Part shown: in pieces, positions 10,101-53,384 of the stretch
How the letters are laid out: each line of letters opens with the position of its first letter
Position numbering within the stretch: position 1 is the first letter of the stretch
Origin: Rugalucina vietnamica
Lineage: Eukaryota > Mollusca > Bivalvia > Lucinida > Lucinidae
DNA length: 64,000 nucleotides
NCBI GenBank assembly: GCA_964017185.1
Contig: OZ024871.1
Coordinates: 65,910,866 to 65,974,865 of the forward strand
Direction: 5' to 3'
Program-made: the position numbers and the translations under genes
Notes under the pieces: generated by a model
The model's input: only the letters and a program-made list of their open reading frames with translations
Told to the model about the DNA's origin: nothing
The model's database searches: none

Positions 10101-10380
10101 CATCAGGAAAACATGTCCGTGTAATGTATACCCCCTTGAACCCCACTTTTATATAGTAAAACTGGGATTTACAGGGGTATACCTATTTTTTTATTTTTGC
10201 TCCAAAACATAGATTGTGGGTACTCGTTAGAACCGCCTCGCCGAGGCGGTTCTAACGTGTACCCACAATCTATGTTTGGAGCAAAAATAAAAAAAATCGA
10301 ATTTTTTTCCGATGAAATTTTCAATTTTCACAGGTAAAAAAAAATCTCTATATATATTGCATGGGCAAGTTTTCGTAATG
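10101..10380 (+). mobile_element. F1 hairpin element, full copy
   Basis: It starts CATCAGGAAAACATGTCC and ends GGGCAAGTTTTCGTAATG, which are imperfect inverted ends. Palindrome 1 spans about 10129-10180 (GTATACCCC to GGGGTATAC). Palindrome 2 spans about 10185-10300, with arms TTGCTCCAAAACATAG.. and a GCCTCGCCGAGGC centre. It interrupts the third unit of the local tandem array between ..GTAAAAT and ATTACAG... Sister units read AAAATTACAG, consistent with a 2-bp AT duplication. Confidence 0.88.
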
Positions 10381-11122
10381 ATTACAGTGATTCTCTTTGG
10401 CTCCTTGTTGCCAAATCTATCGGGTCACTGAAGAAGTTTAAGTTGCCGAAACCGCGATGACCTTATATTTATGTAATGTGACATTAAATACTGTTCATTT
10501 GAGTCCTTACGTTTTGGAAACTTCGTGCAGGAAGTGAGTCATGTACCTTAACACGCGTAAAGATGAGAACAGAAAACATTGTTTTTTATGTGCAATCAGA
10601 ACCTAAGTCCCGTCATAAATAAAACAACATTAAACCCAGTCTAACAGTCGTATAATTTTGGATCTTGCATTAAATGGAACCATTTTCAGAGAAAGAATAT
10701 TTATTGGGATTTGCTATGCTAGTGAACACATCAGCTATTATTTAAGTATTCGCAATGTTAGAATCTTGCAAAGGAACACTGTCGTAAACTTTGCTTGTTT
10801 AGCTGAATATACGGTCTTGCCATCATCTGCGGGCTTGCATTATGCTGATTACACGTAGTCTAGGCTCGTTTAGCCAAGTTCGAGTTCTGGATTACTTGGT
10901 TGTTATACGACATTTCTAATAATACTTTACACAACATTCCTTGTAATGTCCTTGTAATGATTTCAACGGGAGCTTGTGCTTCAATTAGCTCAAACAGGAA
11001 ATTTGTCATTAACCTTGTTTGCGTCTTAAAGAGGGTTTGATAAATAGATTGCGAGAATCATTTGAAACGAATAGATGTATAGTTAACTGAATCGTAAAGT
11101 CTGTTTGTGAGATCTAAAGAAA

Positions 11123-11398
11123 TTGGGTCGCAAAGAAATTTGGTCGCGTTTCCGCTCTTCAGCTGTGACCAGCATTTCATCTAGAAAAAGGATATTCCAA
11201 AAGAAATCATCTGATTCAACGGTTCAAAAAGCGATACAGCAACATGTTGTGGAACATGCAGAACGTGACAAGGCACTAAAGATGTTATGGTCAACTACGG
11301 CATCCAAAACCAACTCCAGACGTCTTGACCTGTGTCTTGACTCTAGGCGCAGCTGGGTGAGGACGAGTTGGCGAAGTTGCACTCCTCATCCTGACTAA
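11123..11398 (+). other. Unassigned 91-codon open frame
   Basis: A single open frame with no recognisable motif, no paralogous copy in duplication copy B and no clear splice context. It is most likely chance. It is noted only because the surrounding 11080-11560 carries no other feature. Confidence 0.1.
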
Positions 11399-12450
11399 AA
11401 TCCAATTTCAAAGCGCACGTCATCTTATTTCTCAACACACTAGAACTTGCATACACAACAATTTCATCACACATGCACTCACATCCTTATTCAAGAAATA
11501 ATGATGGTCTTCCTCACTAGTGAGAGACGAACTTTATGTTCACAGCTCTAAGGATGTCAGTTACAATTATATTTGCTATTACTGCAGCTGGTGTTGTGCA
11601 GTGTGGCGGCCCAAGAGTCTCCCCCGTACATTATCTATAGTTCAGATTACATTTTCCTTTTGGCCCTTTGAGAAATCAGAAATTTATTATCGGTTAAGAT
11701 TCGTTATCTAACCAGCGTTTTATATATAATATTTGGTCTAAGTTCTTTGTTGAAAGTTGCAAATTTACAGTAATTCACTTTGGCTCCATGCTGCCAAAAC
11801 TTAAGTGACACTGACGAGGCTCAATAAGCTGAAATCGTAACATGGCCCATAGCCTTTCTCATTAATATGTTTCCTGCTCTAAAAGGACCTCATTTTTAAT
11901 TTGAGCACCGCATGAGTATATAACTCCACCGTGCTATGTCACAGTTGAGAAACACATGGTATGGAATTGGTGACGTACAATGCAATTCAGGACGAAGTTG
12001 ATGTGAAAACAAAATCGAGTTTTCTCCTACAGCGTTCATTCTATTGACTGATTGATAAGTGCAGAAGTTGAACATTGTATTGAATGAAAGTAACATAAGG
12101 AATGCAGATTATTTCGTTTTCGCAAATACTAAAGAAAAATTAACATCTAGTACTTCCATCAAACATTGAAGTGTTTTGAGAAAACGAAATAAGCCTTTCT
12201 TATTCTACTTTCTTTCAATAAATGTTCAATTTCTGCATTGCCTGTACCTATCTATCAGTCAGCAGAGTAAACGCTGTAGAAGAAAACTCGAAAAATCAAA
12301 CTCAACCTCGGTCTAAATTGCAACGTGTGTCACCGATCATTTAGCTGTTTGTATGTATACACTACCACGTGATTCTCTGTAGTGTATGTGTTGGAGCAGG
12401 CCTCAGAATTCAAATATGAATTTCCCAGGGCCTTTCATTTATTTGATGTA

Positions 12451-13465
12451 CATGGTGTCCCAAAAAAAAAAACGCAACCACTACTAAACAATGTTTTTTT
12501 TTTTAAATAATACAGATATAAGTAATTAATTAACACAATATTATCAACTTATATTTGATCCTTAATCAGACACCCGTTTTGCTAGGCGGTTCTTCATCAG
12601 AAAGTGAAGTCATAGCAAATCTGTGATGTCCTGTTGTCTGCTGCAACTTGCATTCATAGTAATGCTAGACAGTTAACAGCTACAATTTCCAACCGTTCTC
12701 AAGCCTTTATTCTCTCGCAAAAGTGGTATAACGTTGAGAAAATTGCCATGATAATCACAAAATTAAGAGAGCTAGTTCAAAAATGGACAACATTTGCTAA
12801 ATGCCAATGAAAATTGTATTCCAAAATACCATCAAAAGTTAGTGTCATGTAAAAATTCAAATATTCCGAAAGCAGTTCGGTCATTCCGGATATAGGTGTA
12901 CATGTAGTACAATAACACTTAATATTATAAATATGGAGACATTGTTTTGAATCATACCTCTGCTAAGTTTGATTTACATGTATTAGTTTTCTGTAAAAAA
13001 TGAAGTTAAACAGAAAACAGGCATTGTAGCGGGTTACATTCTCATTGGAAATTTTACATGACACTTTTTATCTTCGATGGTCATGCATCTCCCATTTCGG
13101 AATAAATTTTGTATATCCAGCAAATGCTGTCCACTTTTTAATAAGTTCCCTTAATTTTCATAAAATTATGGCAACTTTATCTACATTTTATCCATTTCAA
13201 GAGAGAATTAATGCTTGATTGCTTAAAAATTGCATTTTGTTAACTGCTTTCCATTTCCAGGATTGCTAATTGCAGCAGACAACAGGAAGTGACATCACAG
13301 ATTTGTTATGACGAGAGTTCCTGTTGAAGAACCGCCTAGCAAAACGGGTGTCAGATTAAGTATCAAATATAATAGAACTACTATAATTGTGTTAAATGTC
13401 TTACTTGAATTGTAAAAAAAGTTATGCACTGTTTAGTAGAGGTTGCTTTTTTTTTGGACACCCTG
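12451..13465. mobile_element. Mariner-like fold-back element, ~1 kb, flanked by TA
   Basis: Ends CATGGTGTCCCAAAAA and reverse complement CAGGGTGTCCAAAAAA are inverted and bordered by TA (12449-12450 and 13466-13467). This matches the TIR and TA target habit of Tc1/mariner elements. The arms extend inward for about 450 bp as an imperfect inverted repeat. Both carry GACACCCGTTTTGCTAGGCG, GTTCTTCA, AAATCTGTGATGTC and CCTGTTGTCTGCTGCAA. No transposase frame remains, so it is a non-autonomous snap-back derivative. Confidence 0.8.
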
Positions 13466-13467
13466 TA

Positions 13468-13956
13468 CACGGGGACCCAACTGTTAATCGTGATTATTGA
13501 TGCGACGTGGAATGTTAATGCATGCCATTATGAAGTTTCGTAAGCGTCGGCGAGTTCGTTTCGAATGCGACGTTCCACATTCTCTGTCCTTAGACGGTAA
13601 GTACCACATGTTTTGCTCGCGTGAAAATAAACAAAGCCCAGTTTACAAAATCGGCGTCCACTATGATCTTCAAAATTCTTCTATATTCCCACTTGAAGTC
13701 AACTGGAATACTTACGGCACTTGTGTTTTTCAGCTAATGGTTTATAAAGTTGACAGGTAGATACAAAATTGCCACGAATACACATTACATTCTTAAAGTC
13801 CTTTTGTTTTTCTAATTCTTGGTCGTAAACTAAGAAGTATAACACAGTCCTATCGGTGTCTTTATTGAAATATGTATCAAAATGGCGTTGTAAATGCACA
13901 TTATCTACTGAGCGTGAAAAACAGTAAGATAAGTATCTTTTGTATGCATCGAAGAT
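13468..13956 (+). repeat. Left arm of a 489-bp inverted repeat
   Basis: Starts CACGGGGACCCAACTGTTAA and runs to about GCATCGAAGAT. Its reverse complement occupies 14721-15209 with roughly 90 percent or higher identity by eye. The 764-bp spacer shows no internal symmetry. The mariner-like element was inserted exactly at the TA beside the outer end of this arm. Confidence 0.85.
13500..13760 (+). other. 86-codon ORF in left inverted-repeat arm
   Basis: Starts MRRGMLMHAIMKFRKRRR and ends VYKVDR. The opposite arm keeps the same frame and stop on the minus strand, with about 12-13 substitutions and no indel. No family was recognised. Inside the frame lie a strong donor-like GTAAGT (after TTAGACG), an acceptor-like TGTTTTTCAG and another donor-like GTAGAT, so this may instead be an exon-intron fragment captured by a transposon. 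It is basic (RKRRRVRF) and carries no signal peptide. Confidence 0.3.
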
Positions 13957-14340
13957 GAAGATACATACTACTAGAATGAGTCATGGAAGAATTAGCATTT
14001 TGTTGTGCTCTTACAAAAGTTATTTACGTCAATGCAGAAGCATAACTTGCGCCTTTATCAAGCACAATATTGCATGGCGTATTTTTTCTTAGTACTACAT
14101 GTACTTCGTTGAGCGAGCTTCAAAGCATGTGCCACTTTTATTTTGAATGAGGTCACAGAGTGGTTTTCTGATATAGCAGTTTGTCAACATTCGAGTGACT
14201 TCTTGCCTCGAAACAGCTAATCATTTTCGGGCATATCAGTGACATAGGTAATATGTTTTCTAACATTAAATGACCACTAAGGTTAAACCAAGTATTATTT
14301 GATCATTTAATATCGGTGGCTCCATGCATTTTGATAAGCG

Positions 14341-14361
14341 GCGGTGGGCGGGGCGGGGGGA
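14341..14361 (+). other. G-rich tract, possible G-quadruplex
   Basis: GGTGGGCGGGGCGGGGGG in an AT-rich setting has four G-runs with one-base loops. It lies in the spacer between the inverted-repeat arms. Confidence 0.5.
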
Positions 14362-14720
14362 GAAAAAAAGAATTAAAGGGATTTGTGCGAGTTTTAGGTG
14401 CGGTTATCAATCAGTTTTCCATGGGAATGGTGTGTTGTACAAGAACAGCGATCAACTATGGTTATTTTATTGCAACTAGAAGAGTCTTTCGGAAGCCCTT
14501 TGAACCCTCGGCCTCAGGCTAAAACAACTTTTTCCAGCCTCTGCAAATGTTAATACAGTATAAAAACATGGTTGACCCCTTTAACATGTATCTAGAAAAT
14601 ATTAATTGAAGAAAATGCATCACTGTCTCCATATCGTAACATTTGCTATCTTATTATACTGATTCATCGGTCTCAATCTTCCACGATGCATTTCTGTGTC
14701 GCATATCAAATTTTAACAAA

Positions 14721-15209
14721 ATCTACGATGCATACGAAAGATGCTTATCTTACTGTTTTTCACGCTCAGTAAATAAGTGTGCATTTACAAAGCCATTTTG
14801 ATACATGTTTCAATAAAGACACCACAAGACTGTGTTATACTTCTTAGTTTACGGTCAAGAATTAGAAAAACAAAAGGACTTTAAGAATGTAATGAGTTTT
14901 CGTGGCAATCTTGTATCTACCTGTCAACTTTATAAACCATTAGCTGAAAAACACAAGTGCCGTAAGTATTCCAATTGACTTCAAGTGGGAACATAGAAGA
15001 TTTTTGCAGATCATAGTGGACGCCGATTCTGTAAATTCGGCTTTGTTTATTTTCACGAGAGCAAAACATGTGGTACTTACCGTCCAAGGACAGAGGATGT
15101 TGAGCGTCGCATTCGTAACGAACTCGCCGACGCATACGAAACTTCATAATAGCATGCGTTAACATTCCAAGTCGCATCAATAATCACGATTAACAGTTGG
15201 GTCCCCGTG
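14721..15209 (-). repeat. Right arm of the 489-bp inverted repeat
   Basis: Reverse complement of 13468-13956. Its outer end reads GGGTCCCCGTG followed by CTGTACATC. The flank GATGTAC is shared with the left side once the mariner-like insertion is removed. Confidence 0.85.
14917..15177 (-). other. 86-codon ORF in right inverted-repeat arm
   Basis: Starts MRLGMLTHAIMKFRMRRR and ends VYKVDR, the mirror of the left-arm ORF. Both are intact despite divergence at silent and replacement sites. Function is unknown. The donor- and acceptor-like sites of the left copy are also present here. Confidence 0.3.
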
Positions 15210-21000: not shown

Positions 21001-21766
21001 TCAGTCATAGCTAGTATTTTCACAGAAAGTATTTGTACACTTGGTGCTCCGTAAGCTTCCATCTTTCCTCTTATTCAATTTCAGCGTGATTTGTCCGTTT
21101 GCGTAATCCACCGACATACCCCGTGAGCTACTGAACCGACTTTGGCGTCGTGGGAGGTCTGAGGAAGACCGTGAAGAGCAAGATAAGAGAGTTATCGTTC
21201 GTTTTCTAATAGCTTTTGAGAAGAAACAGTAAATAATTGGATTCATTCCAGAATTGGCCTGTCCGAGCCATTGTGCAATCGGAACTGCAATATTCACGAG
21301 AAAATCCTGTTCAGCAGAATCCTCGGGTGGCGGATTGAAGAGCATTTTGATAAAACAGGTGTAAAGTGGAAGCCATGACAACGCAAATAGAAGGACAACG
21401 ATAACGAACATTTTGACAACCTTGACCTTGGATTTTTGTATCACTTTGCTGTAGCGGAATATTCCAGGGGCGTTTCTGTTCCAAACCCTCAGTGCTATCA
21501 TGAGATAACACAAAATAATCAGCGTTAGAGGAATGATGTAACACACTGTGACCAATAGGAGAAAATAAACCCGCTTTCCATTTTCGAATGGCCATTTTTC
21601 CAAGCAGAGATAGAAGACTTGATGTCCAACGTCGACCCTCTCCAGTTGGTGGTAGAGTAACCATGGTATTACGAGACAGAGGGAAAATATCCAAATGAAA
21701 ATCATGATTATTTTTGCAATTTTCCATGTCATTTTGTGTTGGAGAGAAAAGCAAATTGCTATGTAT
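21001..21766 (-). CDS. SIFamide/NPFF-type neuropeptide receptor, exon 3 (TM4 to C-terminus)
   Basis: Last coding exon of a class A GPCR that should signal from the plasma membrane through heterotrimeric G proteins on binding an amidated peptide. The acceptor is TATTTCAG at 21774-21767, and the first base completes the Arg of the DRY motif (DR|YIAICFSLQHK). TM4 ends in VIPWLLYHQLE. ECL2 has the conserved Cys in YLCLEKWP. TM5 contains CYIIPLTLIILCY. ICL3 has WNRNAPGI and SKVKVVKM. TM6 contains FALSWLPLY. TM7 contains GQANSGMNPIIYCFFSKAIR, with the NPxxY variant NPIIY. The tail is Ser/Arg-rich, ending NTSYD and a TGA at 21003-21001. The WNRNAPG and KSKVKVVKM signatures recall SIFamide receptors and their NPFF relatives. 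Family membership is firm; the ligand is inferred. Confidence 0.93.
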
Positions 21767-21839
21767 CTGAAATATAAATAATAAAAAAGAATAAACATTT
21801 GTAATGTATGGTGAGACTTTGGCAATGACTGATATATAC

Positions 21840-22072
21840 CATCAGGAAAACATGTCCGTACATTGAATACCCCCTTAAAACCCACTTTTATATAGTAAAA
21901 CTGGGGTTTACAATGGTATACCTAATTCTCAGCGAGGCGATTCTAACGTGTGACCACAATCTATGTTTTGAGCAAAAATAAGAAAAATATATATAAAAAA
22001 AATGCTAATGAAATTTTAGATGTTTTACAACCAAAATAATTCTGTATATTGCATGGGCATGTTTTCGTAATG
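21840..22072 (+). mobile_element. F1 hairpin element in receptor intron 2
   Basis: CATCAGGAAAACATGTCCGT start and ATGTTTTCGTAATG end. Palindrome 2 is degenerate because the first arm is lost from TTTTGCTCC to the centre. It lies 73 bp upstream of the exon 3 acceptor in transcript terms. Confidence 0.85.
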
Positions 22073-22586: not shown

Positions 22587-22853
22587 CATCAAGAAAACAT
22601 GTCCGTGAAATGTATACCCCATTGAACCCCACTTTTATATAGTAAAACTTGGGTATAAAGGGGTATACCTATTTTTCTTAATATTACTCCAAAACATAGA
22701 TTGTGGGTACTCATTAGAAACGCCTCGGTTCTTACGTGTATCCACAGCCTATGTTTTGAGCAAAAATAAGAAAAATATCATTTTCTACTAAATTTTTTCA
22801 ATATTCCCACCTGAAACAATCTTTATATATTGCATGGGCTAGTTTTCGTGATG
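22587..22853 (+). mobile_element. F1 hairpin element beside exon 2 donor
   Basis: CATCAAGAAAACATGTCC start and GGGCTAGTTTTCGTGATG end, with both palindromes recognisable. It ends 18 bp inside the intron from the exon 2 splice donor. Confidence 0.87.
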
Positions 22854-24053: not shown

Positions 24054-24315
24054 AAATATGACGTGTACAACATAGAGCAAGACGCATTTATTCCCCAGAG
24101 TAATGGTCAATACCCAGGAATCGGTGGCTCCGTCCCCACGCCAGCCAGACAAGTATACATTACAGAGAATATTCTAATAGGTTCGACTAGAATGATGACC
24201 TGCTGTTTTTTGGCAAGATGGCTTTTTGTTTACCTTCAACAAAAATATGACGTGCAACACAGAGACAGACTAGACAGACAAAAACGTGAACATTTCGAAA
24301 AAATGCACGTGCCAT

Positions 24316-24545
24316 AGACAGATATTTTTAAGTTGTAAAAATGTTAAATTTTCAGTAGATTGTTTTCTTATTCTTGTTTAAAACATAGATTGTAGGTACA
24401 CGTTATAACCGCCTCGACGAGGTGGTTCTAACGAGTACCCACAATCTAAGCAAAAATAAGAAAATTAGGAATATCCCCGCAAACCCCAGTTTTTTCTACA
24501 TAAAAGTGGGGTTCAGGGACATTTCACTGACATGTTTTCCTCATG
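24316..24545 (-). mobile_element. F1 hairpin element, truncated
   Basis: Reversed F1. The 5' TIR is kept as CATGTTTTCCTCATG, and both palindromes are recognisable (GCCTCGACGAGG centre). The 3' TIR region is lost before ACAGATATTTTT. Confidence 0.8.
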
Positions 24546-24732: not shown

Positions 24733-24999
24733 CATTACGAAAACTTGCCCATTTAATTAACAGAATTTTTTTTATCTTTAAAAATTGAAAATTTTCGAAA
24801 AAAAAAATGATATTTTTCATATTTTTGCTCAAAACATAGATTGTGGGTACATGTTAAAAATGCCTGTTCTAACGAGTACCCACAATCTATGTTTTGGAGC
24901 AAAAATAAGAAAAATAGGTAAACCACTGCATACCCCAGTTTTACTGTATAAAAGTGGGGCTCAAGGGGGTATAAATTACAAGGACATATTTTCCACATG
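24733..24999 (-). mobile_element. F1 hairpin element
   Basis: Reversed copy from CATTACGAAAACTTGCCC to GGACATATTTTCC. The big palindrome has lost most of its GC centre (AAAAATGCCTGTTCT). Confidence 0.85.
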
Positions 25000-30700: not shown

Positions 30701-32277
30701 CAAGTGCTTAATATATAACCATCCAGCATAGCAACAAAGGCTTATACATGTATATGTGGATGGTTCGACTTGAAACCACTTTTCCTGGGCAGGCTTAGAC
30801 TTGAGTGGTTAACCAGTAATCTGATAGTCAGTCAGATGTGTACAAGCTTTGCCTGGAGGCACAAGCAACCTATCTATTTCTTTGAGCCCCTATGGGCAGG
30901 GGAATGACGCCACACAACACGGCGTACGATCTCTTCTAGGGCAATTCTGTTTGCTTTGAAGCATAATTTGAAAAATGACTTAAACTGTTAAATCCGTCTT
31001 GATGCCCTTGAAGATGAACGTGAAATAATAATCATGGACATTTTAATATAGGGAAGGTGTTTGAACACATGGCCACAGGCCGCGTGTACAAACCCCTCCC
31101 GAGTGATCCAGCGATTGTTTGAACACTGAAACAAACCATGGTTGATCGCTATTCTTGCATTTCCTCTCTAATCCACTTAAAAGCTCTTGAAAATAACATT
31201 AACAGCGTAAAAACTCTTCGAAAACCGCGGATCTTCTTCAACGTCGGCGATTTTGTTTCTACGAAACACATGACGTCACGTCGCAATGACCAATGACGTC
31301 GCCCCAAACCCATGTTCAAACGGCACTTGAATTTCATGACTTGAACATGGGTTTTGCTGTTTGAACACGGCTTTCGACCGATTGAAAACGGCTTCAAATA
31401 GCTATGCGCATAGATATCTATGCAAGAATTCGTATTTGCGCTCCTAAATATATTAACGTACACATTTACATTTCAGATCCCTTTCCTTTAGAAGTTGGTA
31501 ATATAAGTTTTGAAGTGGAGATCGAGAAACTGAAAAAGATGACAACGACAATACTAAACATTCTTAATTTTTCAATTTTGAGTGTAGAATGTAGTTTTGC
31601 TTGTATCTAGTACCTGGTTAATGTTTACTGTCGCGAACTACAGGTGGAAAAAAATCGAATTATTAAAGTTAACCAACCCAACGGTACGCTTCAGATAAGT
31701 AGATCGTCCAGACATAATATATTTGTAATTATTCCTCGCAATTAACCTGTTTATTCGTCTTCCTGTCAACAGCTATCGGCCAATTCGTGCATAACTATTA
31801 TCTCTCGTGTGAGTAACTGAAATTGCGGACGAAACATTGGCAATACCAAAATTCAAACAATAGAAGCCATAGACGCCTGAGTTGTGTCTGTCAGCAACCT
31901 TTAATAATTAGAAGAATCGTGATGACATTCAAACACACGCAACAGGTGACAGACTCATTGTTTCTCATTTACATGTAACAAGTAAATATGTTATTTATGC
32001 TGATTCTATTCTATGTGTATTTCAACAATCATTTTGTCTTTTTGTCAAGGTCTGTCTCGATGCGATTTTTAAAAAAGTTGATACCTGCTCATTGCTCCTG
32101 AAGGGTTTGTTTGATATTCCTTATTCTATGGTAAGAAAAAGAAACAATAAACGTTAAATTAAAATTAACGTAAGTAAATTGATAGGCTGAATATTGATGA
32201 TCGAGAGCCTTAAAACATATCACCATGTGAACATTTTATGCTAATTCTGATACAAATTTCCATTGTTTTACGCGTTT

Positions 32278-32532
32278 CATTACGAAAACACTTGAAACCT
32301 ATGTAATTTACAGATTTGTCTGAAGTTTTAAAACTTGAATAATTTCAGTAGAAAAATTTTCATTTTTCTTATTTTTGCCCAAAACATAGATCGTGGGTAC
32401 AGGTTAGAATCACTTCGGCGAGGCGGATCTAACGAGTACCAATAATCTATGTTTTGGAACAAAAATAAGAAAAAAGGTAAATCCCTGTATACCCGAGTTT
32501 TACTATATTAATGTGGAGTTTAAAGGGGTATA
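32278..32532 (-). mobile_element. F1 hairpin element, head-to-head with the next copy
   Basis: Reversed copy starting CATTACGAAAACACTTG. Its 5' TIR is missing where it abuts the next copy at GGGGTATA|CATCAGC. Confidence 0.82.
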
Positions 32533-32809
32533 CATCAGCAAAACATGTCCGTGAAATATTTACCCCCTCAAACCCCACTTTTAAATAGTAAAACTGGGGT
32601 TTGCAGGGGTATACCTATTTTCTTATTTTTGCTCCAAAACATAGATTGTGGGTACTCGTTAGAACCGCCTCGCCGAGGCGGTTCTAACGTGTACCCACAA
32701 TCTATGTTTTGAGCAAAAATAAAGAAAATATCAATAATTTTCAGCTGATTTTTTCAGTTTTTAAAGCTCAAAAAATCTCTGTATATTGCATGGGCAAGTT
32801 TTCGTAATG
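32533..32809 (+). mobile_element. F1 hairpin element, near-perfect palindrome
   Basis: CATCAGCAAAACATGTCCGT to GGGCAAGTTTTCGTAATG. Palindrome 2 (about 32617-32729) is almost perfect through GAACCGCCTCGCCGAGGCGG. Confidence 0.9.
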
Positions 32810-34298
32810 TATTTCACGGATATGATATCCTGATGCAAATATCCAATCCACATTTGATTAAGATTGTAGTTTATTTTCTGATTAATGTGATGTGCTGATT
32901 TTTATCAGAGAATGCCAGATACCACTAACAGCTTGAGATAGCTGATATCTTTGAACTCAAACTTTCAATTAGTTTTGAAGGTAAAAATGTGATTTTTCAT
33001 CTATTTTCACTGATTTTTTCTTTCAATGATATCCACTATCAGTGTTCGTGGGAATTCAGTTCGTGCCTACATATATGTAACTATGCGGTCTTTACAACCG
33101 GATACCTCGCAGACAAATACGAAGGAAGAAACGACATTGTGCGATGTCTAAGTGCGGTGCGATGTCTAAGTATACTTAGCAAAAGTGAAAACTCTACATG
33201 TCACTGTAATTATATTCCAGACAAAGTATCAGAAAAGTGGCATTAAATCAGTTTCTATAATGTTTTCCAGGCTTCCAGCAAATGTTTCGTGAAAATTTCA
33301 TCGATTGGTCTCATTTGATATCTGAGTTAAGGGATCATTATGCGTTTAAAGTTTTTTCGATAAATTATGCATGTGCGCATGCGCAAGAAAAGATTTTTTA
33401 CGCTTTTTAAAACGTACGATGCCCGTGTTACATTAAAACGTTTAAAAACTTGACTAATCCTTTGAAACAAGCTAAGAAATCAATGTCTAATTTTGCCATT
33501 TTGCCAATTGTCTCCCTTTGACATAAACAAATAGGGAATATTGAATGTTCGGTATTCTCCGGTGTATACCGATTTTCCAAAAATTTCTTTTGCCAATTCA
33601 TTAAGGTCTACAAACACATCATTCCTACCATTTCTCGATTAGGAGTATCTTCAAACGTCGATGTAACAACAGGTTCATTATCCTATGGAGATTACATTGA
33701 GAAAATTTCAAGCATTGCGATTTGATGAAAAATACACTTTTCAAGGTTGATTTTAAAAACCATCACATAAGCTTGTGGTGAATCGTTTACAGTTTCTGAC
33801 TGACACATGTCCTGACTACATATCCAAGCAATTCCACATGGTTGAAACGTTTACTCTTGGTTTTCTTAAGTCGTAAACTGTGTGAAATTTCTGTTCAAAT
33901 TGCACACATAAAAAATGGTACCCTGACACACTGAATGGGCGGTTCTGTCTTTTTTGTGACAATAATCGTATCATGTTTAGTGTTATGGGCAGCCAAGTCT
34001 TTAAACATTTCAAAACACTTTCATTTGATTTGAGGGCTTGTTTCATTTTTCAGAAATTTGACAAACAATTAAGGTGTAGCGTTTTCACTTTTGTTCAGTA
34101 TATTTCGTAAACAAAGTAACGTTCCGTTCATGACTGCCATGGTCGAAGTCAAGTATGTAACGATATTGTGAATAGTTAGCAACAAAATACATTTTACTCA
34201 TACTTTACAACTACATTAAACGAGAAATACAATGTTACATGTGAAAATGTCATTGGATAAAATGGTTTGAAAATTAAGGTACATTGTAAGAATATATA

Positions 34299-34959: not shown

Positions 34960-35929
34960 TAGATTGCTCAGGAACTCATATAACTAAAGGTCAAAGGAAA
35001 AATCAAGGCAAACCAAACTATATATATTCTGGTCAAAATAAGTTAAGGATCAAACTTTAAAGGATGCATTTTTGGGCCAATCAATAATTAATCAAGTTTT
35101 CATTTATATGTTGGATTAGCAGTATTATCGCACTTTCATATGCCACCAATTTTGAAATTGTGCATCATTTGACTCAAGCACAGCTGTTCTAAAATAAAGC
35201 ACACTACCCTGAAAACCAAAGTGATAAAAAGTCAATTAAAACTGATTCCACGAAAAATTCGTTTTGCCAATTCATGAAAATTTTGGGAATTTGCATGATA
35301 AACATCAAGATTCATCATTTCTAAGGTCAGCCTGCTAAAATGAATGGAAATTGCTAGTCATTTTAAAAGTTTTGCACGAACAATCTTACACACCATCAAT
35401 TCTCTATGGGAATTTCATACCACTTTCATTTTAAGGGTAGTCCGACTTAAAGCCTGGTCTTGTTGAATGCAAAGACTATTATTTCGATCCTCAAGTGTAC
35501 AAAACTTACAGATGATACAAATGCTTCATTTTACCAGCAGTTCGAAATCTTGAAGAAATTGTGCGTTAAAAGTTTGATCCCCAACTTTATTTGTCCAGTA
35601 ATGTAATTACATAATGTAATTACCAAAATCATACAAAAATACTGGAGAAAGACGATATATTGATGCAAACTAAACCTATACATTTTTAAACGAAACATTC
35701 TGACATAACTTTTCGTATGAGAAACTTCATCATGGTATTCTCCTATTTATGTGAATAAATGTATGGAACGCGGATATTTTGTCCCAGTCTTTTCAATGGA
35801 TTGGACATTGTGCTGAGTAAGAGGAAAACATGCATATTAAATAAACAGAGATTTTTTTACAGCTTTATAAATAAAAAATATATATGAATTAAATGTTTGA
35901 AAATTTTCTTTCGTTTTATGCAAAGCTTA

Positions 35930-36066
35930 CGGATGCTAAAGAGTACCAACAATCTGTGTGTTTGAATTAAAAATAAGAAAAACATTATGCTCATGACAAC
36001 CTAAATTTTATCACATTAAAGTGGAGAGTAAGTGGGTTTGCAAAACAGACATGCTATCCTGATGAA
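35930..36066 (-). repeat. F1-like remnant, counterpart of 5975-6092
   Basis: Contains GAGTACCAACAATCTGTG, AAAAATAAGAAAAA, AAAGTGGAGAGTAAGTGGG and TCCTGATGAA, a worn reversed F1. The flank TTTAATTATTGGTTTAAT downstream is shared with copy A. Confidence 0.5.
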
Positions 36067-36562
36067 CTCTACCATTACACAGTAACGTTTTTTCGGCAGC
36101 AAATAACATACTTTCTTTGACATTTAATTATTGGTTTAATCCAATCTGAATGTAGTTCAGCTAGAAGTGTCTCCGAACTAGAAGAGGCTTTATCAGTAGT
36201 ATCAGTGTCTCGGTGATGTAAAATTATTTCTTTGTGTTCCAGTTTTTTGAAACACCATTATGAGTAAATTAGATGGGCTTTGTATAGAAATGAAATATTG
36301 AACTCAAAGTGAGCGCAATATATTAATATGTTTCACTGTTTAGAGCTTATCTGTCATTTCGTTATTTCTGGAATGCTAATTTCACAACGACTAACTTAAA
36401 AATTACATTACACTGCTGCTATGTTTGAAGTTCTTTCTTTTTTCTTTCTTTTTTTCTGTCCCTTTTTTTTTTTTTTTTGGTTTGTTTGTTTGTTTGTTTG
36501 TTTGTTTTCCGCGTGCTTGTCAAAACAACCCAGACTTGATTGTATGGGATTTTAGTTGCTGA

Positions 36563-36788
36563 ATCAGGAAAACATGTCCATGAGAAATATACTCCCTCAT
36601 ACCCCACTTTTATACAGAAAAAATGGGATATACAGGGAATCCTTTTTTTTTTTTTGTTAGGTCCAAAACATACAACTAGGTTGTTGGTACTCGTTACTTA
36701 ACGTATACCCACGGTCAATGTTTTTTGGGGGTTTTTTTCACAGCAGAAAACAATCTTTGTATATTGAATGGGCAAGTTTTTCGTAATG
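36563..36788 (+). mobile_element. F1 hairpin element, degenerate
   Basis: ATCAGGAAAACATGTCC start and GGGCAAGTTTTTCGTAATG end. The centre of palindrome 2 is reduced to CTCGTTACTTAACGTATACC. Confidence 0.82.
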
Positions 36789-37488
36789 TTTCGTTCTGAT
36801 TTACCAGCACTGAGTATACATAATTATTTACGGTTTATAAATACATTTTGGAAAAAGGTGGCTACCTCGTTTTACAATATAATGTAGGTGTTCTAATGTT
36901 GCCTGATAGTTAATTTAGTTATTTTTCATTTTGGTCTCCTGGAGATGTGAATATTTTTATAGCATTTCCTTGTCATTTTCCTTTAATTTTACGTGTATGA
37001 CACATTTGTTGCTCATGTTGCGACTCGTTTGACGGCTAAAATGGATTGTGCATTGCATTTATTGAAGAAATCCCTTTGTTTAATGCACGTAAAACAATAA
37101 AAGTGCCATTCCGATAACATTAAGATACATTTGCTTAACCATTAAAGGAACATAAACCCGATTCAACACAATTCGGGTCACACAAACCAATAAGAAAGAG
37201 GAAAAAAGTTATCCTGGCGTATGGAAATTGCGCAACCAGAACGGAAGCCCCGCTCAAAACACCGAAGTGGGAAAACTAAACTGACAATCAGGCAGTAGTA
37301 CAAAGAGAACAATATCTGGAACCGAGTAAGTGGCAATGTCAAAGGTATCTAGTTGTAAGTAACTGTCAGTGGGACATGTTTTATCCATCAAATGAAAATA
37401 AAATGCGAAGCTTCCTTAACAGCACGAAAACTGGTACCCCGAAAGATTTGTTTGAAAAGCGTCATACCGAAAACGTTTGGCAGACTAG

Positions 37489-37753
37489 CATCAGGAAAAC
37501 ATGTCCGTGCAATGAATTCCCACTTAACCCACTTATACAATAACTTATGCAGGGGCATACCTGTTTTTCTTGTTATTGCTCCAAAGCATAGATTGTGGGT
37601 ACTCGTAAGAACCGCCCTGGCGAGGGGGTTCTAAAGTATACCCGCGACCTATGTTTTGAGCAAAAATAGTTTGTTTGTTTTTTCTGGTGAAATTTTCAAT
37701 TTTTACAGATGAAAACAAATTTCTGTATATTACATGGGAAAGTTTTCGTAATG
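37489..37753 (+). mobile_element. F1 hairpin element
   Basis: CATCAGGAAAACATGTCC to AAAGTTTTCGTAATG. Palindrome 2 centre is ACCGCCCTGGCGAGGGGG. Confidence 0.87.
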
Positions 37754-39328: not shown

Positions 39329-39596
39329 CATCAGGATAACATGTCCGTGCAGTGAATACCCCCCTGAACCCCACTTTTATATAGCAAAACTGGGGTATGC
39401 AGGGGTATACCTATTTTTCTTATTTTTGCTCCAAAACATAGATTGTGGGTACTCGTTAGAGGCGGTTCTGACGTGTACCCACAATCTATGTTTTGAGCAA
39501 AAATAAGAAAAATATCCAAAAATTTCCACTGAAAATTTTCATTTTTTTTACAACTGAAAAAATCTCTGTTTATTGCATGGGCAAGTTTTCGTAATG
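39329..39596 (+). mobile_element. F1 hairpin element
   Basis: CATCAGGATAACATGTCC to GGGCAAGTTTTCGTAATG. The GC centre is shortened to GTTAGAGGCGGTTCTGAC. Confidence 0.88.
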
Positions 39597-43446: not shown

Positions 43447-43727
43447 CATTGAAGGGCAAGCAACATCCGTGAAATGTATACCCCCTCAAAATCCACTTTT
43501 ATGTAGAAAAAAATGGGGTTTACAGGGTTATAACTAAATTTCTTATTTTTGATTCAAAACATACATTGTGGGTACTCGTAAGAACCGCCTCGGCGAGGCG
43601 ATTCTAATGTGTACCCACAATGTATGCTTTGAGCGAAAATATAAAAAAATCTAATTTTTTCCAATGAAATTTTCATATTTTTCTTCTGAAAAAAAATCTC
43701 TGTATATTGCATGGGCAAGATTTTGAA
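43447..43727 (+). mobile_element. F1 hairpin element, worn ends
   Basis: ACATCCGTGAAATGTATACC, AACCGCCTCGGCGAGGCG and TGTATATTGCATGGGCAAG are all present. Both extreme TIRs are degraded. Confidence 0.8.
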
Positions 43728-43980
43728 AGAATCTTAATAGAAAATGTCTTATCAAAGATAACTATCTCATAGCCATCTAATAACGATGTATGATTATAAT
43801 CAGATGATAAAGCACATTTACATGGATAACAAGATGTTACCAGCAAAATCTTGCATGTAATCAATGAAAATATATGCAAGTCTAAATTAAAGAACCAAGA
43901 TGACTCCTTTGGTTTACTTTTTTTTTTGTAAAACTCGTCACAAAAATATACCTTGAACCTTGGCAAGAAGCATCGGGTAA

Positions 43981-46250: not shown

Positions 46251-46254
46251 AAGT

Positions 46255-46981: not shown

Positions 46982-47006
46982 CGAAAAAAAAAAAAAAAAA
47001 AAAAAC
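46982..47006 (+). repeat. Poly(A) tract
   Basis: Almost uninterrupted A run. Confidence 0.85.
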
Positions 47007-47905: not shown

Positions 47906-47910
47906 TTAAA

Positions 47911-48662
47911 TAAGTCTTAAGTGCAAATTTATACCCCTGTAAATTTACTCCGGTATGTAAATTTTACTCGGGGTAAGCAAATAGCGCATGCGAACGCAAA
48001 TACAAGCAGTTGTAAATTTACCCATGAGTAAATAAACTCCCGGGTATGGCCAGATGCAAATTTTCTCTTTGCGTTTACATACGTGTAAATATCACTATAA
48101 TTATATTCCATGCGAACACAAAGTAAAATTTACCTATGAATAGTTTTATTTCAAGTCAATATCTGCAATTAGTTACATGTAGGAACTTTCACATTTTTGT
48201 TCTTTACTTGCTGAAACTGTTGCCATTGTTGTTGAATAAGAGTTTATTGCCATTCAACACATTTTAGATCATATGGAGTGCAGTCAGCCACACTGTTTCT
48301 TCATCATTCTTGGTGAGGATTCCTGTGGCATTTCATAGTGAAAGAATGCGAATGGGCTGCTGTATACCAGTAAAGATTAAGCTTGACCATTAGAAGATTC
48401 TCCTCTGCTGCCAATGTTGACCAAGTCCTACAAGAACACCTCGAAGCAGTCCCTTCTTGTTTTGCATATACAGAAAACTTAAATGAACAGGTTTTAATCC
48501 AGAAATGATTTATTTACACATAAAAATACTCCAGGTGATAAAACCCATGTGAACGCACTTTAAATTTACCCAAAGGTGGATTTGCACACCGGAGTATATT
48601 TACATACCGGAGTAAATTTACTCGCGTATAATTTTGGCGCACGCAAATTGGACTTTAGACTA
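47911..48662. mobile_element. Candidate TIR element with GTAAATTTACTCC subterminal repeats
   Basis: Left TGTAAATTTACTCCGGTATG and right, reverse complemented, AGTAAATTTACTCCGGTATG lie in inverted ends that contain several GTAAAT..ACTCC words. The interior shows no recognised protein. Confidence 0.6.
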
Positions 48663-48822
48663 TTAGAGGTTTAACTGCTATTAGCAAATGAAAGACGGAT
48701 GACGAAGGGAAATGACGGATGCAAAGGCTGCAATTTTCACTAAAATCCATAGAATGTTACAAAGAATGTCCGCCCGAACGAATAATATAGTGCATTGGTA
48801 GAACCCAAATATCATCTCCATA

Positions 48823-49007
48823 CATCAGAAAAACGTGTCCGTGAAATTTGTGTACACCCTTAAACCCCACTTTTATATCGTAAAGCTGGCGTATGCAGGG
48901 GTATACCTATTTTTCTTATTTTTGCTCCAAAACATAGATTGCGGGTACTCGTTAGAACCGCCTCGCCGAGGCGGTTCTAACGTGTATCCACAATCTATAA
49001 TATTTTG

Positions 49008-49041
<34 letters not shown>

Positions 49042-49139
49042 AAAAAAAAAAAAAACAATTTTTTTCAACTGAAAATTTTCATTTTTTACAACTTTAAAAA
49101 TTTATGTATATTGCATGGGCGTGTTTTCCGAGCGTAATA
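48823..49139 (+). mobile_element. F1 hairpin element beside receptor exon 1 donor
   Basis: CATCAGAAAAACGTGTCCGT to GCATGGGCGTGTTTTC. The last ten bases are disturbed by a short insertion (CGAG). Palindrome 2 is strong, with an adjoining A-rich run at 49012-49055. It ends only about 14 bp from the exon 1 splice donor. Confidence 0.85.
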
Positions 49140-49153
49140 TATACTGTACTCAC

Positions 49154-49463
49154 CATTATACAAACTTTGCAGCAGAGTAATAGGCATGCAGAACACGGCC
49201 ACTAATATGTCCGCCACGGCAAGGTTAACAATGAATAGATTGGTCAAGTTATGCATCCTCCTGTTTCTTATCACCACGGCAACTACCACGATATTACCGA
49301 ATAGCGCAAACAGAAATATAATCCCATAAGCCATAGAATAAATAACGACCATGTAGACGGGCTGCCGTATGTCAGGGTAGAGTTCTAGGGAATCGTCACC
49401 AATGCTTTTGTTTTGCAAAGCAGATGGGATTGGGGAAGTTGTGGTCCCTAGTTCTAAAGCCAT
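49154..49463 (-). CDS. SIFamide/NPFF-type neuropeptide receptor, exon 1 (N-terminus, TM1, TM2)
   Basis: Starts MALELGTTTSPIP. It has an N-glycosylation sequon NKS at residue 18, and no cleaved signal peptide is apparent. TM1 runs about residues 36-65 and contains FGNIVVVAVVI. ICL1 is RNRRMHNLTN. TM2 contains LFIVNLAVADILVAVF with the NLxxAD motif. The exon ends after LLQSLYN with one base of Gly, followed by GTGAGT at 49153, phase 1. Exon 2 begins GC-TGG, restoring Gly-Trp of ECL1. The summed exons make 1176 nt including the stop. The 26-kb intron to exon 2 is long, so exon 1 belonging to a broken paralogue cannot be fully excluded. Confidence 0.88.
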
Positions 49464-50167
49464 CTTTGCAAACTTATTTGTATGAAAAGTACAACAGATT
49501 TGTAAGTAAATCCTTTTAATGCTTTTCAGTTATGGAACACTTCTTTAATATTGTTTAATAACTTTGTTTGAAAATAAGTTAAGTTTATAACATTGCAAGC
49601 ACGTTTTAATTAACGCGAATAAGTTGAGCGAACGTCTACGATTGCATCTTTAATGCACCCCTCTTTTTCTCCTGAAACAGTAGAATTGTTTATAGACAAA
49701 CATTTTTCTTGCTCTTCCGTCTTAGGTCTCTCAATAACTACTACTTAATCCATCACTTCTACAGATAATTTCTGACAAATTAACCACCTAAAACTACAGC
49801 CGAAGGTATAGGTTGATATTGTAGTTAGAGAAGCCAGCATCACATCTTAAATACAGCAGAGTTTCCGTTAGCAGAAACCCTGTCTTTGGACGTATCTGCC
49901 AATGCTGACACAAACGGATCTTAGCCGTCGTAGAGACTAGCTACGTCATCAAGATGTTGACTTGAGCAATACGAAACGTAATCCTATCCTAAAAAGCGAT
50001 GCACCAATGTTCTCATCTAAGTGTACGGAACACCAGGCTGATCTGTAGCTTTGTACCTTATTCAAGGCAAAAACCTAATATGTCATGATGAGATTCAAAC
50101 GCTTGCGTCTCCGTATTGGAAAAAGCAAAGACAAGAATAAAGGATCGATCTTCTAACTGACAAACAG
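49464..50167 (-). other. Upstream region of receptor gene (5' UTR/promoter, undetermined)
   Basis: AT-rich sequence upstream of the ATG. No TATA box or initiator was convincingly identified, and further non-coding exons are possible. Confidence 0.35.
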
Positions 50168-50717
50168 CATCAGGAAAACACGTCCGTGCAATGAATACTT
50201 CCTTGAACCCCAAATTTATATATAACCGGCTCCGAGATCGGGAGGTACCGGGTTCGATTCCGGGCCGCGACATACCGAAGTCGTTAACAATGGTACTAGT
50301 TGCTCCCCGCTTGGCACTCGGACTTTCGGGGTAGGGTTACGACTGGTCGCTCCGGTGTCAGTATAATGTGACTGGAGGTGGTATCAGGATTTGATACCAC
50401 AGTGAGGCAGCACTATAAAAGTGAGCATTGAGCTCTCTGTCACAACCAAACACCGTCGTGATATGACAGATGATGTTGAAAGCGACGTTAAACCCGAACA
50501 AACAAACAAACAATATTATATAGGAACACTGGGGTATTCAAAGTATACCTATTTTTCTTATTATTGGTTCAAAACATAGATTTTTGGTACGTGTACCCAC
50601 GATCTATGTTTTGAGCAAAAATATTCAAAAAGTCAAAATTCTTCTAGTGAAATGTTCGATATTTTTTTTCTCAGCTGAAAACATCTCTGTATATTGCATG
50701 GGCGTGTTCTCGTAATG
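50168..50717 (+). mobile_element. F1 hairpin element split by a SINE
   Basis: Left part CATCAGGAAAACACGTCCGT to AATTTATATAT (50168-50224). Right part from TATTATATAGGAACACTGGGG to GCGTGTTCTCGTAATG (50516-50717). The SINE entered the loop of palindrome 1. Confidence 0.87.
50225..50514 (+). mobile_element. tRNA-derived SINE inside an F1 copy
   Basis: The head holds box B GGTTCGATTCC at about 50251. The body contains TTGGCACTCGGACTTTCGGG and GTGAGGCAGCACTATAAAAG. The tail is GCGACGTTAAACCCGAACAAACAAACAA. AT-rich flanks (TATATA-like) represent the duplicated target in the F1 loop. Confidence 0.82.
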
Positions 50718-50904
50718 GGATCGGAACAATTTACTGAAGTCAGTGATTTGTTTCAATCGGCTTAAGCTGTAAGTAATTATCATGTTTTAATGATCAATGA
50801 TTAATTGACTTGTAACAAAAGTATTAATCTTTTCATAAAGAAACTTCATCAACGAGATTGAAAGATCGAAGCCTGGCAACGAAGCTAAGTATAAATTACA
50901 CTTC

Positions 50905-52013
50905 GTTTACCCCTTAAAACCCCAGTTTTTATCGCACCTGCTTATAGCAGGGTGCGATATAGGAGTCCAAATTTCCCTCCGTCCGTACGCCCGTGCGTTC
51001 AGCCGTCCGTCCGTGCGTCAATCCATCCGTCAACATTTATGTCGAAGTTTTACATTTATGTCGAAGTTTTACATTTACGTCGAAGTTTGGTTTTCTCTGC
51101 ATCAGTGATAGCTGAGAGTGTGAAACCTCGCAGAGTAATTGTCCTTGACATACCCTTCAAGCATGCACCTTGACTCGGTGCCCTTGACCTATATTTCACA
51201 GTCCATTGACTTTGTTAATTTTTATGTCGAAGTTACGTCATAGTTTGGTTTTCTCTGCATCAGTGATAGCTGCGAGTGTGCATAGTAATTGTCCTTGACA
51301 TACATTTCAAGCATGCACCTTGACCCGGTGCCCTTGACCTATATTTCACGGTCCATTGACTTTGTTACTTTGTACGTCGAAGTTTGGTTTTCTCTGCATC
51401 GATGATAGCCGCGAGTATGAAACGTTGCATAATAATTGTCCTTGACATACCCGTCAAGCACGCACATTGACCCAGTGTCCTCGACCTATATTTCATGGTC
51501 CATTTACTTGGTTAATTTTTACCCCAATATCGATTTTCTCTGCATCAGTGATACCTTGCATAGTAATTGTCCTTGACATACCCAACAAGCATGTACCTTG
51601 ACCCGGTGCCCTTGACCTATATTGACTTTGCTAATTTTTATGTTGAGGTTTGATTTATTCTGCACCTGTGATAGCCGCAAGTGTAAAACCTTGCATAGTA
51701 ATTGTCCTTGACATACCTATCAAGCATGTACTTTGACCCAGTGACCTTGACCTATATTTCATGGTCCATTGACTTTATCAATTTTATGTCAAACTATGAT
51801 TTTCTCTGTACCTAAGGTAGCTGCAAATGCGAAACCTTGTATTGTAATTGTCCTTGACATACCCCTTCAGCGCACACCTTAACCAGGTGCCCTTGACTTC
51901 TATTTTACGTGTTTAATTATTATGCCCGATGCAGGTGCGATATCGACCTCCGTAGCGTTCTTGTTTCTACATATAAATGGGGTTCAAGGAGGAAAATAGT
52001 GTCCTGATGTTTT
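50905..52013 (-). mobile_element. F1 fragment split by the 51-kb repeat element
   Basis: TTTACCCCTTAAAACCCCAG (to 50939) resumes at 51969 as ATAAATGGGGTTCAAGG..TGTCCTGATG. Together these give the reversed 5' end of F1. Confidence 0.65.
50940..51968 (+). repeat. Element with ~145-bp internal tandem repeats
   Basis: Opens with a stem-loop TATCGCACC..GGTGCGATATA and a CCGTCCGT-rich stretch. About six units then follow, carrying AATTGTCCTTGACATACC, CAAGCATGCACCTTGACCC and GCCCTTGACCTATATTTCA. It closes with GCAGGTGCGATATCG, inverse to the opening. Not coding. Confidence 0.8.
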
Positions 52014-52673
52014 ACAGACGGAAAAGTAGTAATAAAGAATGTTTGTACTATACGCTTCGACATACGAAAAATCAGACACCTACGCTTAATTTATATCAAT
52101 TTCAGCCTATACAATTTTGCACATAAAATACTGGTATTTTATGTAAAACGCAAGCAATTTATGGTCAGTCAACAATGGATTTTACCTCATATGCAGCTGC
52201 GCAATTCTAGATAAACAGAAATAAAAACGGGTGTCGACAAATGTATTTGGAATCAAAGTAATAAAATAAAATTAAACAAAAAACTAAAATCATTGAATTT
52301 GCACTTTAAAAGCAATGCCACCAAAATTTGATATTATAAGTTTCCGTAAACATGTTTATGTCACGAATATCTTGACACCAGCCTCAATGCCTTGCAATGA
52401 AGCATTGATGTTAGTCATGTTGAGAAAAAGACACTGGTAGAGCGCTCTAAGCAGAAAATCTCAACGTGAGGCTCAGATTGTCATATAAAACATATGCTGG
52501 TGATTACAGCTGATGGTTTGAGAAAATTCTTTTAGAAATTGTATATACAGTTCGCAGCTATTCTAACTCATTAGTTATTATTTGACGTTCTGATTTAATT
52601 ATGTTGTTATCAAACACGAGTATTTGCATAACTGACCGTTTCTAGGCGTAAGCTATTGTGACTCTCTTTGTTC
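52014..52673. other. Unassigned
   Basis: No gene or repeat recognised. Confidence 0.4.
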
Positions 52674-52909
52674 CATCAGGAAAATATGTCCGCGAAATAC
52701 ATACACCCTTAAACCCCAATTTCATAAAGTAAAACTGGGGTATACAGGGGAATGCCTATTACTGGGGTATACAGGGGAATGTCTTATTTTTGCTCCAAAA
52801 CATAAACTGTGGGTACTCGTTATTACCGCTTCGGGGAGGCGGTTCTAGCGTGTACCCACATTTTTTGTCAGAAAACCTCTGTATATTGTATTGACAAGTT
52901 TTCGTAATG
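52674..52909 (+). mobile_element. F1 hairpin element
   Basis: CATCAGGAAAATATGTCCGC to GACAAGTTTTCGTAATG. It contains a short direct duplication of ACTGGGGTATACAGGGGAAT. Confidence 0.85.
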
Positions 52910-53127
52910 TGTTGTTTAAGTGTCTGTTTCAGTAGAGCTTCTACTTTGTGCAGGTATAAATACATAAAGATAGATTAGAGTAATATGAGTGGTCACATTT
53001 TGGGAAAAAGCTGTTCATTCAAATGACAAATTGTTGTAATTTTTATCATAACTTAATTTGTTATTTTTGGTATTTCCCAGCTGTACATGTAAGTGAATAG
53101 AATTTTGTTTTGGGAATTTCGATCTGC

Positions 53128-53384
53128 CATAACGAAAACTTGCCCATGCCAAATACAGAGATTTTTCCGTTTAAAAAGATGAAAATGTTTTCAGCTGAAA
53201 CATTTTGATATTTTTTCTTATTTTTCTTATTTTTTGCCTCGACGAGGCGGTTCTAACTAGTACCCACAGTCTATGATTTGGAGCAAAAATAAGAAAAAAG
53301 CGTATGCCCCTGCATACCCCAGTTTTACTATATAAAAGTGGGGTTCATGGGGGGGTATACATTACACAGACATGTTTCGTGATG
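53128..53384 (-). mobile_element. F1 hairpin element
   Basis: Reversed, CATAACGAAAACTTGCCC to CATGTTTCGTGATG. One arm of palindrome 2 is deleted. Confidence 0.85.

Follow-up and report, generated by a model that had tools for sequence, protein, structure and literature searches.

The length of the target sequence duplicated on insertion is the usual fingerprint by which DNA transposons are assigned to superfamilies. According to PMC4482050, the members of the PHIS superfamily favor A+T-rich targets and span 0 bp (Spy), 2 bp (ISL2EU), and 3 bp. Spy enters AAATTT without a duplication, ISL2EU duplicates the AT of A|AT|T and has terminal inverted repeats (TIRs) that usually start with GG, and PIF/Harbinger duplicates a 3-bp TWA and has TIRs that start with A or G; variable lengths are given in the same source for CMC (2 to 4 bp), hAT (5 to 8 bp), Merlin (8 to 9 bp), and Ginger (4 to 5 bp). 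Among rolling-circle nonautonomous elements, the oyster HINEs (Cg_HINE) are described in PMC7492417 as widespread, with subterminal inverted repeats, a palindrome, a microsatellite, and often a tandem-repeat core, and as making no duplication. We analyzed a repeat family, F1, in a 64,000-nucleotide stretch of the lucinid bivalve Rugalucina vietnamica (GenBank contig OZ024871.1, our G000:C3:65910866-65974865; hereafter the window). F1 is a discrete 279-bp unit with inverted ends that lies at many unrelated A+T-rich sites, including a site inside another F1 copy, and its junctions carry target duplications of 0, 1, or 2 bp. It is quite probably a nonautonomous DNA transposon resembling a miniature inverted-repeat transposable element (MITE), moved by an enzyme acting in trans that joins its ends with a variable stagger; the data further suggest that the source copies keep the large inner palindrome, here called PAL2.

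The F1 consensus derives from the 30 loci most similar to the copy at 10101-10380 of the window. It is noncoding, with a capacity of at most about 93 codons, and consists of TIRs, a first hairpin (HP1, consensus about 26-82), PAL2 (about 84-198), and a weaker third hairpin. The imperfect TIRs of about 30 bp lie at the very tips (CATCAGGAAAAC..GTTTTCGTAATG), with CATCA as the start and CAT..ATG as the outermost bases. PAL2 is a near-perfect palindrome of about 114 bp that also matches itself on the other strand. The DNA fold of the consensus has an energy of -88.4 kcal/mol (z, -17.9), which 0 of 200 shuffles equaled, and both TIRs are predicted to pair as one stem bearing the hairpins. When the consensus was compared with the window, 20 pieces were found (range, 5926 to 53384; E, 2e-98 to 3e-7). 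Nine cover consensus 1-279, and all together they make up 6.4% of the window bases; three Markov-shuffled windows yielded none. Because some copies are interrupted, one by another F1 copy and one by an insert resembling a short interspersed nuclear element (SINE), we read the 20 pieces as 17 elements (Table 1). A first-pass annotation of the window had described at least 15 copies with inverted ends, a first hairpin, and a second palindrome, all of which are seen in the copies and in the consensus. The range that it gave, 10101..53384, does hold the other copies and misses a degraded one at 5926-6041. It had also noted the lack of a transposase-like frame, and we likewise found no transposase-sized frame among the three ATG/GTG/TTG open reading frames (ORFs) of at least 150 amino acids (aa) in the window, one of which is an exon of a G protein-coupled receptor (GPCR), the shorter frames having been searched only in part. 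A Pfam search of seven chosen window frames placed only two GPCR exons above the cutoff, and Rfam and ARAGORN gave no matches on the window.

The family is not confined to the window. In a sample of 20 stretches of 10 kb at round coordinates (200 kb) from the 1.09-Gb genome (47 contigs), F1 was present in 15 stretches, with 39 pieces and 6,922 bp, or 3.5% of the bases. Bootstrapping over stretches gave 115 to 280 pieces per Mb and 2.0 to 5.1% of bases, and the variance of the counts per stretch was 1.86 times the mean. Extrapolated, the genome would hold about 210,000 F1 pieces, many of them fragments. Identity to the consensus ranged from 63 to 98.7% (median, 82.6%; 55 pieces of >100 bp), which points to long-lasting activity; the closest pair of full copies is 98.9% identical. 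The same ends recur across the genome, as the first-pass annotation expected of a true family: 36 of the 40 full matches scored genome-wide, from 4,353 first-look candidates, cover query positions 1-280.

The first and last consensus bases were matched in all 30 aligned loci, of which one, L008, is without the bases just inside the left tip, and the flanks are unrelated. Junctions were compared in 50 of 58 full copies that had CAT..ATG ends and sufficient flank, 24 of these 50 having been picked by similarity; the 8 copies left out had an altered tip (6 copies) or a short flank (2 copies). The last left flank base equaled the first right flank base in 29 of the 50 copies, compared to 15.6 expected by re-pairing flanks, a 2-bp match was seen in 15 (5.3 expected), and either match was seen in 37 (18.9 expected). 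Because re-pairing ignores the likeness between neighboring genomic bases, A+T-matched random sites were added as a control. The expected values then rose to 18.7 for the 1-bp match (P = 0.002), 6.7 for the 2-bp match (P = 0.001), and 21.3 for either match (standard deviation, 3.4; 0/5,000), and the excess remained. There was no excess of flank matches of 3 bp or more in the 50 copies (3-bp matches, 2/50 versus 1.5 expected) and no exact match at k of ≥4. A mixture fit assigned duplications of 0, 1, and 2 bp to fractions of 0.39, 0.40, and 0.20 of the sites (bootstrap 5 to 95%, 0.20 to 0.56, 0.22 to 0.57, and 0.09 to 0.33, respectively). Restricting the model cost 15.3 log-likelihood units with 0 bp only, 49.6 with 1 bp only, 139 with 2 bp only, and 6.5 with 0 and 1 bp. 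For the 25 copies of at least 94% identity the fractions were 0.25, 0.48, and 0.27, and in other copy sets (25 to 60 copies) all three classes persisted, with the 2-bp class between 0.11 and 0.27.

Empty sites show the same three classes directly. For 56 of the 58 full copies the two flanks were joined and searched for in the available DNA of the genome; a match across the joint was obtained for nine, of which seven are interpretable. Three are 0-bp sites without target loss (L014:1501, window 32533, and L008:2089, the latter two being F1 inside F1 sequence), three are 1-bp sites (L030:1501, T; L007:1135, G; and L045:7518, A), and one is a 2-bp site (window 10101, AT). The A+T content of the target is 67 to 85% per base from -4 to +4, compared to 61% in the sample, and 51 to 76% over the next eight bases. 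No sequence motif or consensus was found in the flanks of the 50 copies, and the 15 two-base matches were AA (4), TA (3), AT (3), TT (3), GA (1), and TC (1). The F1 junction is therefore a duplication of 0, 1, or 2 bp at a short A+T-rich target without a motif. This variable junction is what is new here; a fixed length of 0, 1, or 2 bp fits much worse. Two loci, L015:1499 and L024:1499, share an altered right tip, GTAACG for GTAATG. In L015, GTAA is followed by a repeat of the CGA of the opposite flank, and this tip perhaps reflects end trimming with a longer duplication.

The first-pass annotation had also proposed that the arms of PAL2 differ at fixed places and that the palindrome is inherited rather than regenerated. 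The differences are family-wide: the same T.T mismatch at the TACTCG/TACACG site is kept in 51 of the 58 full copies, and the left-arm 10-mer GCTCCAAAAC and the right-arm 13-mer GTTTTGAGCAAAA are exact in 37 and 42 of them, respectively. The arms also change nearly independently. Double changes at paired positions of the full copies numbered 3 in PAL2 (3.0 expected), 7 in HP1 (4.6 expected), and 6 in the TIRs (6.0 expected), and in 80 pieces not picked by similarity PAL2 had 25, 17 of them pairable, compared to 18.9 expected, a slight excess at most. Correction of one arm by the other after insertion was rejected for want of a clear excess of double changes, and inheritance without regeneration holds. 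In 55 pieces, the share of missing bases was 17 to 18% at consensus 131-150, the center of PAL2, 0 to 4% at 1-80, and zero at 251-279. The independent arm changes and the central deletions together indicate that PAL2 is not visibly maintained after insertion and that its center is fragile.

A different pattern was seen for variants common to several copies, which we take as changes in the source elements. In 34 pieces of at least 84% identity, a set not picked by similarity and excluding the copies through which L002-L030 had been retrieved, such shared variants fell at 1 of 110 sites in the PAL2 arms versus 23 of 163 sites elsewhere (P = 5e-5) and 10 of 112 sites in the TIRs and HP1 (P = 0.01). 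The rates of other substitutions were 0.047 in the PAL2 arms, 0.046 in the TIRs, 0.048 in HP1, and 0.080 in the spacer. This comparison of aligned copies suggests, and does not prove, that the PAL2 arms are constrained in the source copies and that the palindrome may have a role in amplification. Two loci (L041:7040-8102 and L043:~150-800) carry the same long insert in PAL2, judged by eye to resemble the 3' part of a long interspersed nuclear element (LINE); on these two cases, PAL2 may be an insertion target. As both inserts are this one LINE-like sequence, they were rejected as a longer F1 relative.

A search for relatives with the F1 ends and another interior yielded a subfamily. The left TIR without the F1 interior gave 327 exact pattern matches genome-wide (control, 0); among the 100 of these that were listed, GTGGAACCCCTCAAAG stands at 9 and a one-base variant of it at 1. 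In this class, designated class A, the left TIR is followed by GAACCCCTCAAAG. The one copy read, L051 (G000:C2:31324301-31324600, 300 bases), is an F1 copy with the left TIR, a recognizable right TIR, and PAL2, and class A was accordingly rejected as an autonomous relative and taken as an F1 subfamily. The GTATA part of the outer HP1 arm is gone in L051. A hairpin is still predicted there on refolding, with the remaining CCCC and a new CAAA opposite TTTG (-23.4 versus -27.4 kcal/mol for the consensus stretch), and the idea that the outer stem is dispensable in class A was dropped. If anything, this single case would point to an HP1 stem that was kept while its sequence changed. Tiny left-to-left palindromic derivatives with interiors like TAATATACATGTA were rejected in the form searched, as TGTCCGTGN{14,19}CACGGACA had 0 matches. 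At G000:C2:64569885, 64666910, and 64755286, an F1-like left end with AAGTCACTTTTGT after it recurs in identical form on one strand, at spacings of 88 to 97 kb, which probably reflects segmental duplication in tandem.

Right ends lacking the F1 interior gave 544 matches. Among 55 left and 100 right listed ends on C1-C3, one element-oriented pair was closer than 60 kb (C2:2790180-2802751, 12.5 kb), compared to chance expectations of 0.16 pairs below 15 kb and 0.63 below 60 kb. There is no F1 interior next to these ends, and the interval is possibly a chance pairing and possibly a long relative. DDE_Tnp_4 matches number at least 150 in the genome (415 candidates, of which 150 were scored), and many lie in long open frames. 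Of the listed matches, 54 (every one of the 52 on C1-C5, plus 2 of the 6 on C6) were compared with the 100 listed F1-like left ends, and none was closer than 44 kb to any of these. Long frames with equally scoring DDE_Tnp_4 matches occur at G000:C9:59103349-59127618, where four of 434 aa fall within 25 kb, and elsewhere, so transposons of the PIF/Harbinger type seem to have been active here recently. Two F1 strings in IMG/VR and one in prokaryote genomes had 0 matches, as expected for an animal repeat. Four F1 end strings had no occurrence in the literature searched, and no element was recognized as F1 there at the level of listed results; Repbase-type databases lay outside the search, and F1 may be catalogued in them.

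Several observations weigh against a trans-mobilized element whose source copies keep PAL2. In the part of the genome searched with exact 21-base ends, neither an enzyme was found nor the autonomous partner that the first-pass annotation had envisaged, a longer relative that ends like F1 and carries a transposase. At the junctions, the empty sites L004:1501 and L022:1501 are ambiguous (2 of the 9). One of two empties of L045:7518 is without the extra base, one of the four empties shown for L030:1501 lacks two bases, and the four empties shown for window 10101 are 2 bases shorter with a gap that is not always at the junction. As to the palindrome, over the 80 pieces its contrast with the rest is weaker (P = 0.004 to 0.018, depending on the threshold), and with the TIRs and HP1 alone it is P = 0.06 to 0.21, again by threshold. 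Part of the spacer variants lie in poorly aligning T-rich stretches. The copies picked by similarity are probably biased toward intact palindromes, because a palindromic query matches itself on both strands. In the 58 full copies, shared variants fell at 0 of 110 sites in the PAL2 arms (P = 4e-5), a figure to be discounted because that set includes copies chosen by similarity to the palindromic query.

The junctions could instead be the work of a DDE superfamily already described, one that makes little or no duplication in A+T-rich DNA, most likely PHIS (Spy, ISL2EU, and PIF/Harbinger), whose relaxed reaction would give a variable length. The A+T-rich targets and the 0, 2, and 3 bp spanned by PHIS members agree with this, as do the many DDE_Tnp_4 matches in the host genome, but F1 has neither an AAATTT target nor a fixed AT duplication, and it starts with CATCA, not with the GG of ISL2EU or the A or G of PIF/Harbinger. 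The distance of the compared transposases from the listed left ends is a further, weak argument, and we consider this origin unlikely. A capture model, in which linear or hairpin DNA is end-joined into near-blunt chromosome breaks and the 0 to 2 bp are filled-in overhangs, is less likely again. It would account for short variable duplications without a motif, for L008, 1 of the 30 loci, which is without the first left-end bases, and for the altered tips of 6 of the 58 full copies. However, the ends are otherwise precise in 36 of the 40 scored full matches, so an enzyme cutting at the TIR tips is needed, and target loss is absent from the three 0-bp empty sites.

It is very improbable that F1 is a rolling-circle nonautonomous element of the Helentron/HINE type, like oyster Cg_HINE. 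HINEs, which are widespread in a bivalve, combine subterminal inverted repeats with a palindrome, and F1 shares an inner palindrome and the lack of a duplication at part of its sites. Its repeats are at the very ends, though, it has no tandem core, and by the mixture fit more than half of its sites have 1- to 2-bp duplications. Helentrons insert at a fixed T^T, whereas T stands at -1 in 17 and at +1 in 18 of the 50 F1 flanks. We disfavor most strongly, as scarcely credible, an ordinary MITE whose duplication always measured 2 bp (or 1 bp) and was blurred by later mutation. Many copies are old, as the median identity shows, but among the 25 copies of at least 94% identity a 2-bp match is seen in only 9 and a 1-bp match in only 16, and for these copies a fixed length of 1 or 2 bp lowers the log-likelihood by 22 or 66 units, respectively. 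The empty sites, moreover, display 0, 1, and 2 bp directly.

For the nonautonomous MITE-like transposon that we favor, an enzyme made elsewhere would recognize the ~30-bp TIRs, cut at their tips, and join them to a near-blunt target cut with a stagger of 0 to 2 nucleotides. PAL2, as a cruciform or hairpin, may aid amplification, for example by bringing both ends together, as the predicted TIR stem suggests. Once inserted, it is no longer maintained and tends to lose its center. A more specific proposal, that F1 represents a eukaryotic DNA transposon lineage whose integrase acts with a variable 0- to 2-nucleotide stagger at near-blunt A+T-rich cuts and whose amplification depends on the palindrome in cruciform or hairpin form, is tentative, and we hold it with more doubt than belief.

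Table 1. F1 copies in the window and parts of the best copy (window positions; percentages are identity to the consensus)
Feature	Position	Strand	Remarks
F1 fragment	5926..6041	-	consensus 14-133, 69%
F1 copy	10101..10380	+	best window copy, full length, 94.3%; 2-bp (AT) target duplication
Left TIR	10101..10130	+	best window copy; about 30 bp, imperfect
HP1	10126..10182	+	best window copy; GTATACCCC..ACCCCACTTTTA / TAAAACTGGGRT..GGGGTATAC, C.C mismatch
PAL2	10186..10295	+	near-perfect, almost loopless; self-match on other strand
Right TIR	10351..10380	+	best window copy
F1 copy	21840..22072	+	70%; PAL2 left arm mostly deleted
F1 copy	22587..22853	+	85%; 8-bp deletion in PAL2 center
F1 copy	24291..24545	-	78%
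F1 copy	24733..24999	-	87%; 10-bp deletion in PAL2 center
F1 copy	32277..32835	-	split by F1 copy 32533-32809; left end is 32810-32835
F1 copy	32533..32809	+	92%; nested in F1 copy 32277..32835; 0-bp junction, no duplication
F1 copy	35824..36064	-	63%
F1 copy	36562..36791	+	internal loss
F1 copy	37489..37753	+	83%
F1 copy	39329..39596	+	88%; 13-bp deletion in PAL2 center
F1 copy	43466..43728	+	85%; left terminus degraded
F1 copy	48823..49128	+	79%; adjoins GPCR exon
F1 copy	50168..50717	+	split by SINE-like insert (about 50223-50510)
F1 copy	52674..52909	+	lacks consensus 177-241 (outer part of PAL2 right arm and most of spacer)
F1 copy	53128..53384	-	79%

The SINE-like insert at 50223-50510 was assigned by eye from a tRNA-like GGTTCGATTCC box and a CAAACAAACAAA tail. 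The window also contains neuropeptide-type GPCR exons on the minus strand at 21001-21921 and 49086-49529, and in the PDB the first is matched most closely by receptors for neuropeptide FF, orexin, and tachykinin. Both exons have F1 copies on or next to them, and several copies lie in the stretch between, in both orientations. Apart from F1, long-unit tandem repeats occupy 5-1239 (454-bp unit), 51076-51623 (150 bp), 59145-59728 (316 bp), and 60215-60946 (329 bp).

With F1 making up a few percent of a 1-Gb genome, its 0- to 2-bp fingerprint means either that there is an integration chemistry not yet described or that the fingerprint is looser than its use in classification implies. The many F1 palindromes, which seem to be conserved in source copies and to wear away at the center once inserted, also offer a large natural series for palindrome instability in an animal genome.

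Hairpins inside a MITE are unusual and not foreign to the class, so the first-pass judgment that F1 departs from a standard MITE plan captures only part of the matter. The more unusual feature, in our judgment, is the variable 0- to 2-bp target duplication, which that annotation missed. Like MITEs, F1 is short (<~600 bp, and indeed <300 bp), has TIRs, lacks a transposase-sized ORF, combines a very high copy number with uniform ends, and occupies A+T-rich targets in both orientations. It differs from them in having an inner palindrome of about 114 bp and a separate hairpin in place of one simple foldback, and we call it MITE-like because its duplication of 0, 1, and 2 bp is not of a length typical of a superfamily. 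Foldback elements have long repeat-built arms; F1 resembles them in its large inverted-repeat content and in the predicted folding of the whole element, and differs in its short TIRs and discrete inner hairpins. CACTA TIRs start with CACTA or CACTG, and F1 is unlike CACTA/CMC in its CATCA start and its 0 to 2 bp. With Spy it shares an A+T-rich target and the lack of a duplication at part of its sites, but it shows no AAATTT or other flank motif and often has a 1- to 2-bp duplication. With ISL2EU it shares the A+T-rich target and the occurrence of a 2-bp duplication, but various dinucleotides are duplicated and GG is not the start. F1 is unlike PIF/Harbinger in having no excess of 3-bp matches and unlike hAT, Merlin, and Ginger (4 to 9 bp) in having no exact match at those lengths. 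The HINEs of bivalves (Cg_HINE and Pearl) are likewise abundant and noncoding, with an inner palindrome and without a duplication, as at part of the F1 sites, whereas F1 has terminal inverted repeats, no tandem core, and 1- to 2-bp duplications. As far as the two sources describe them, none of the families compared has a 0- to 2-bp duplication, and on its sequence F1 appears to fit none of them; we file it in none of these families because it fails a tested defining feature of each.

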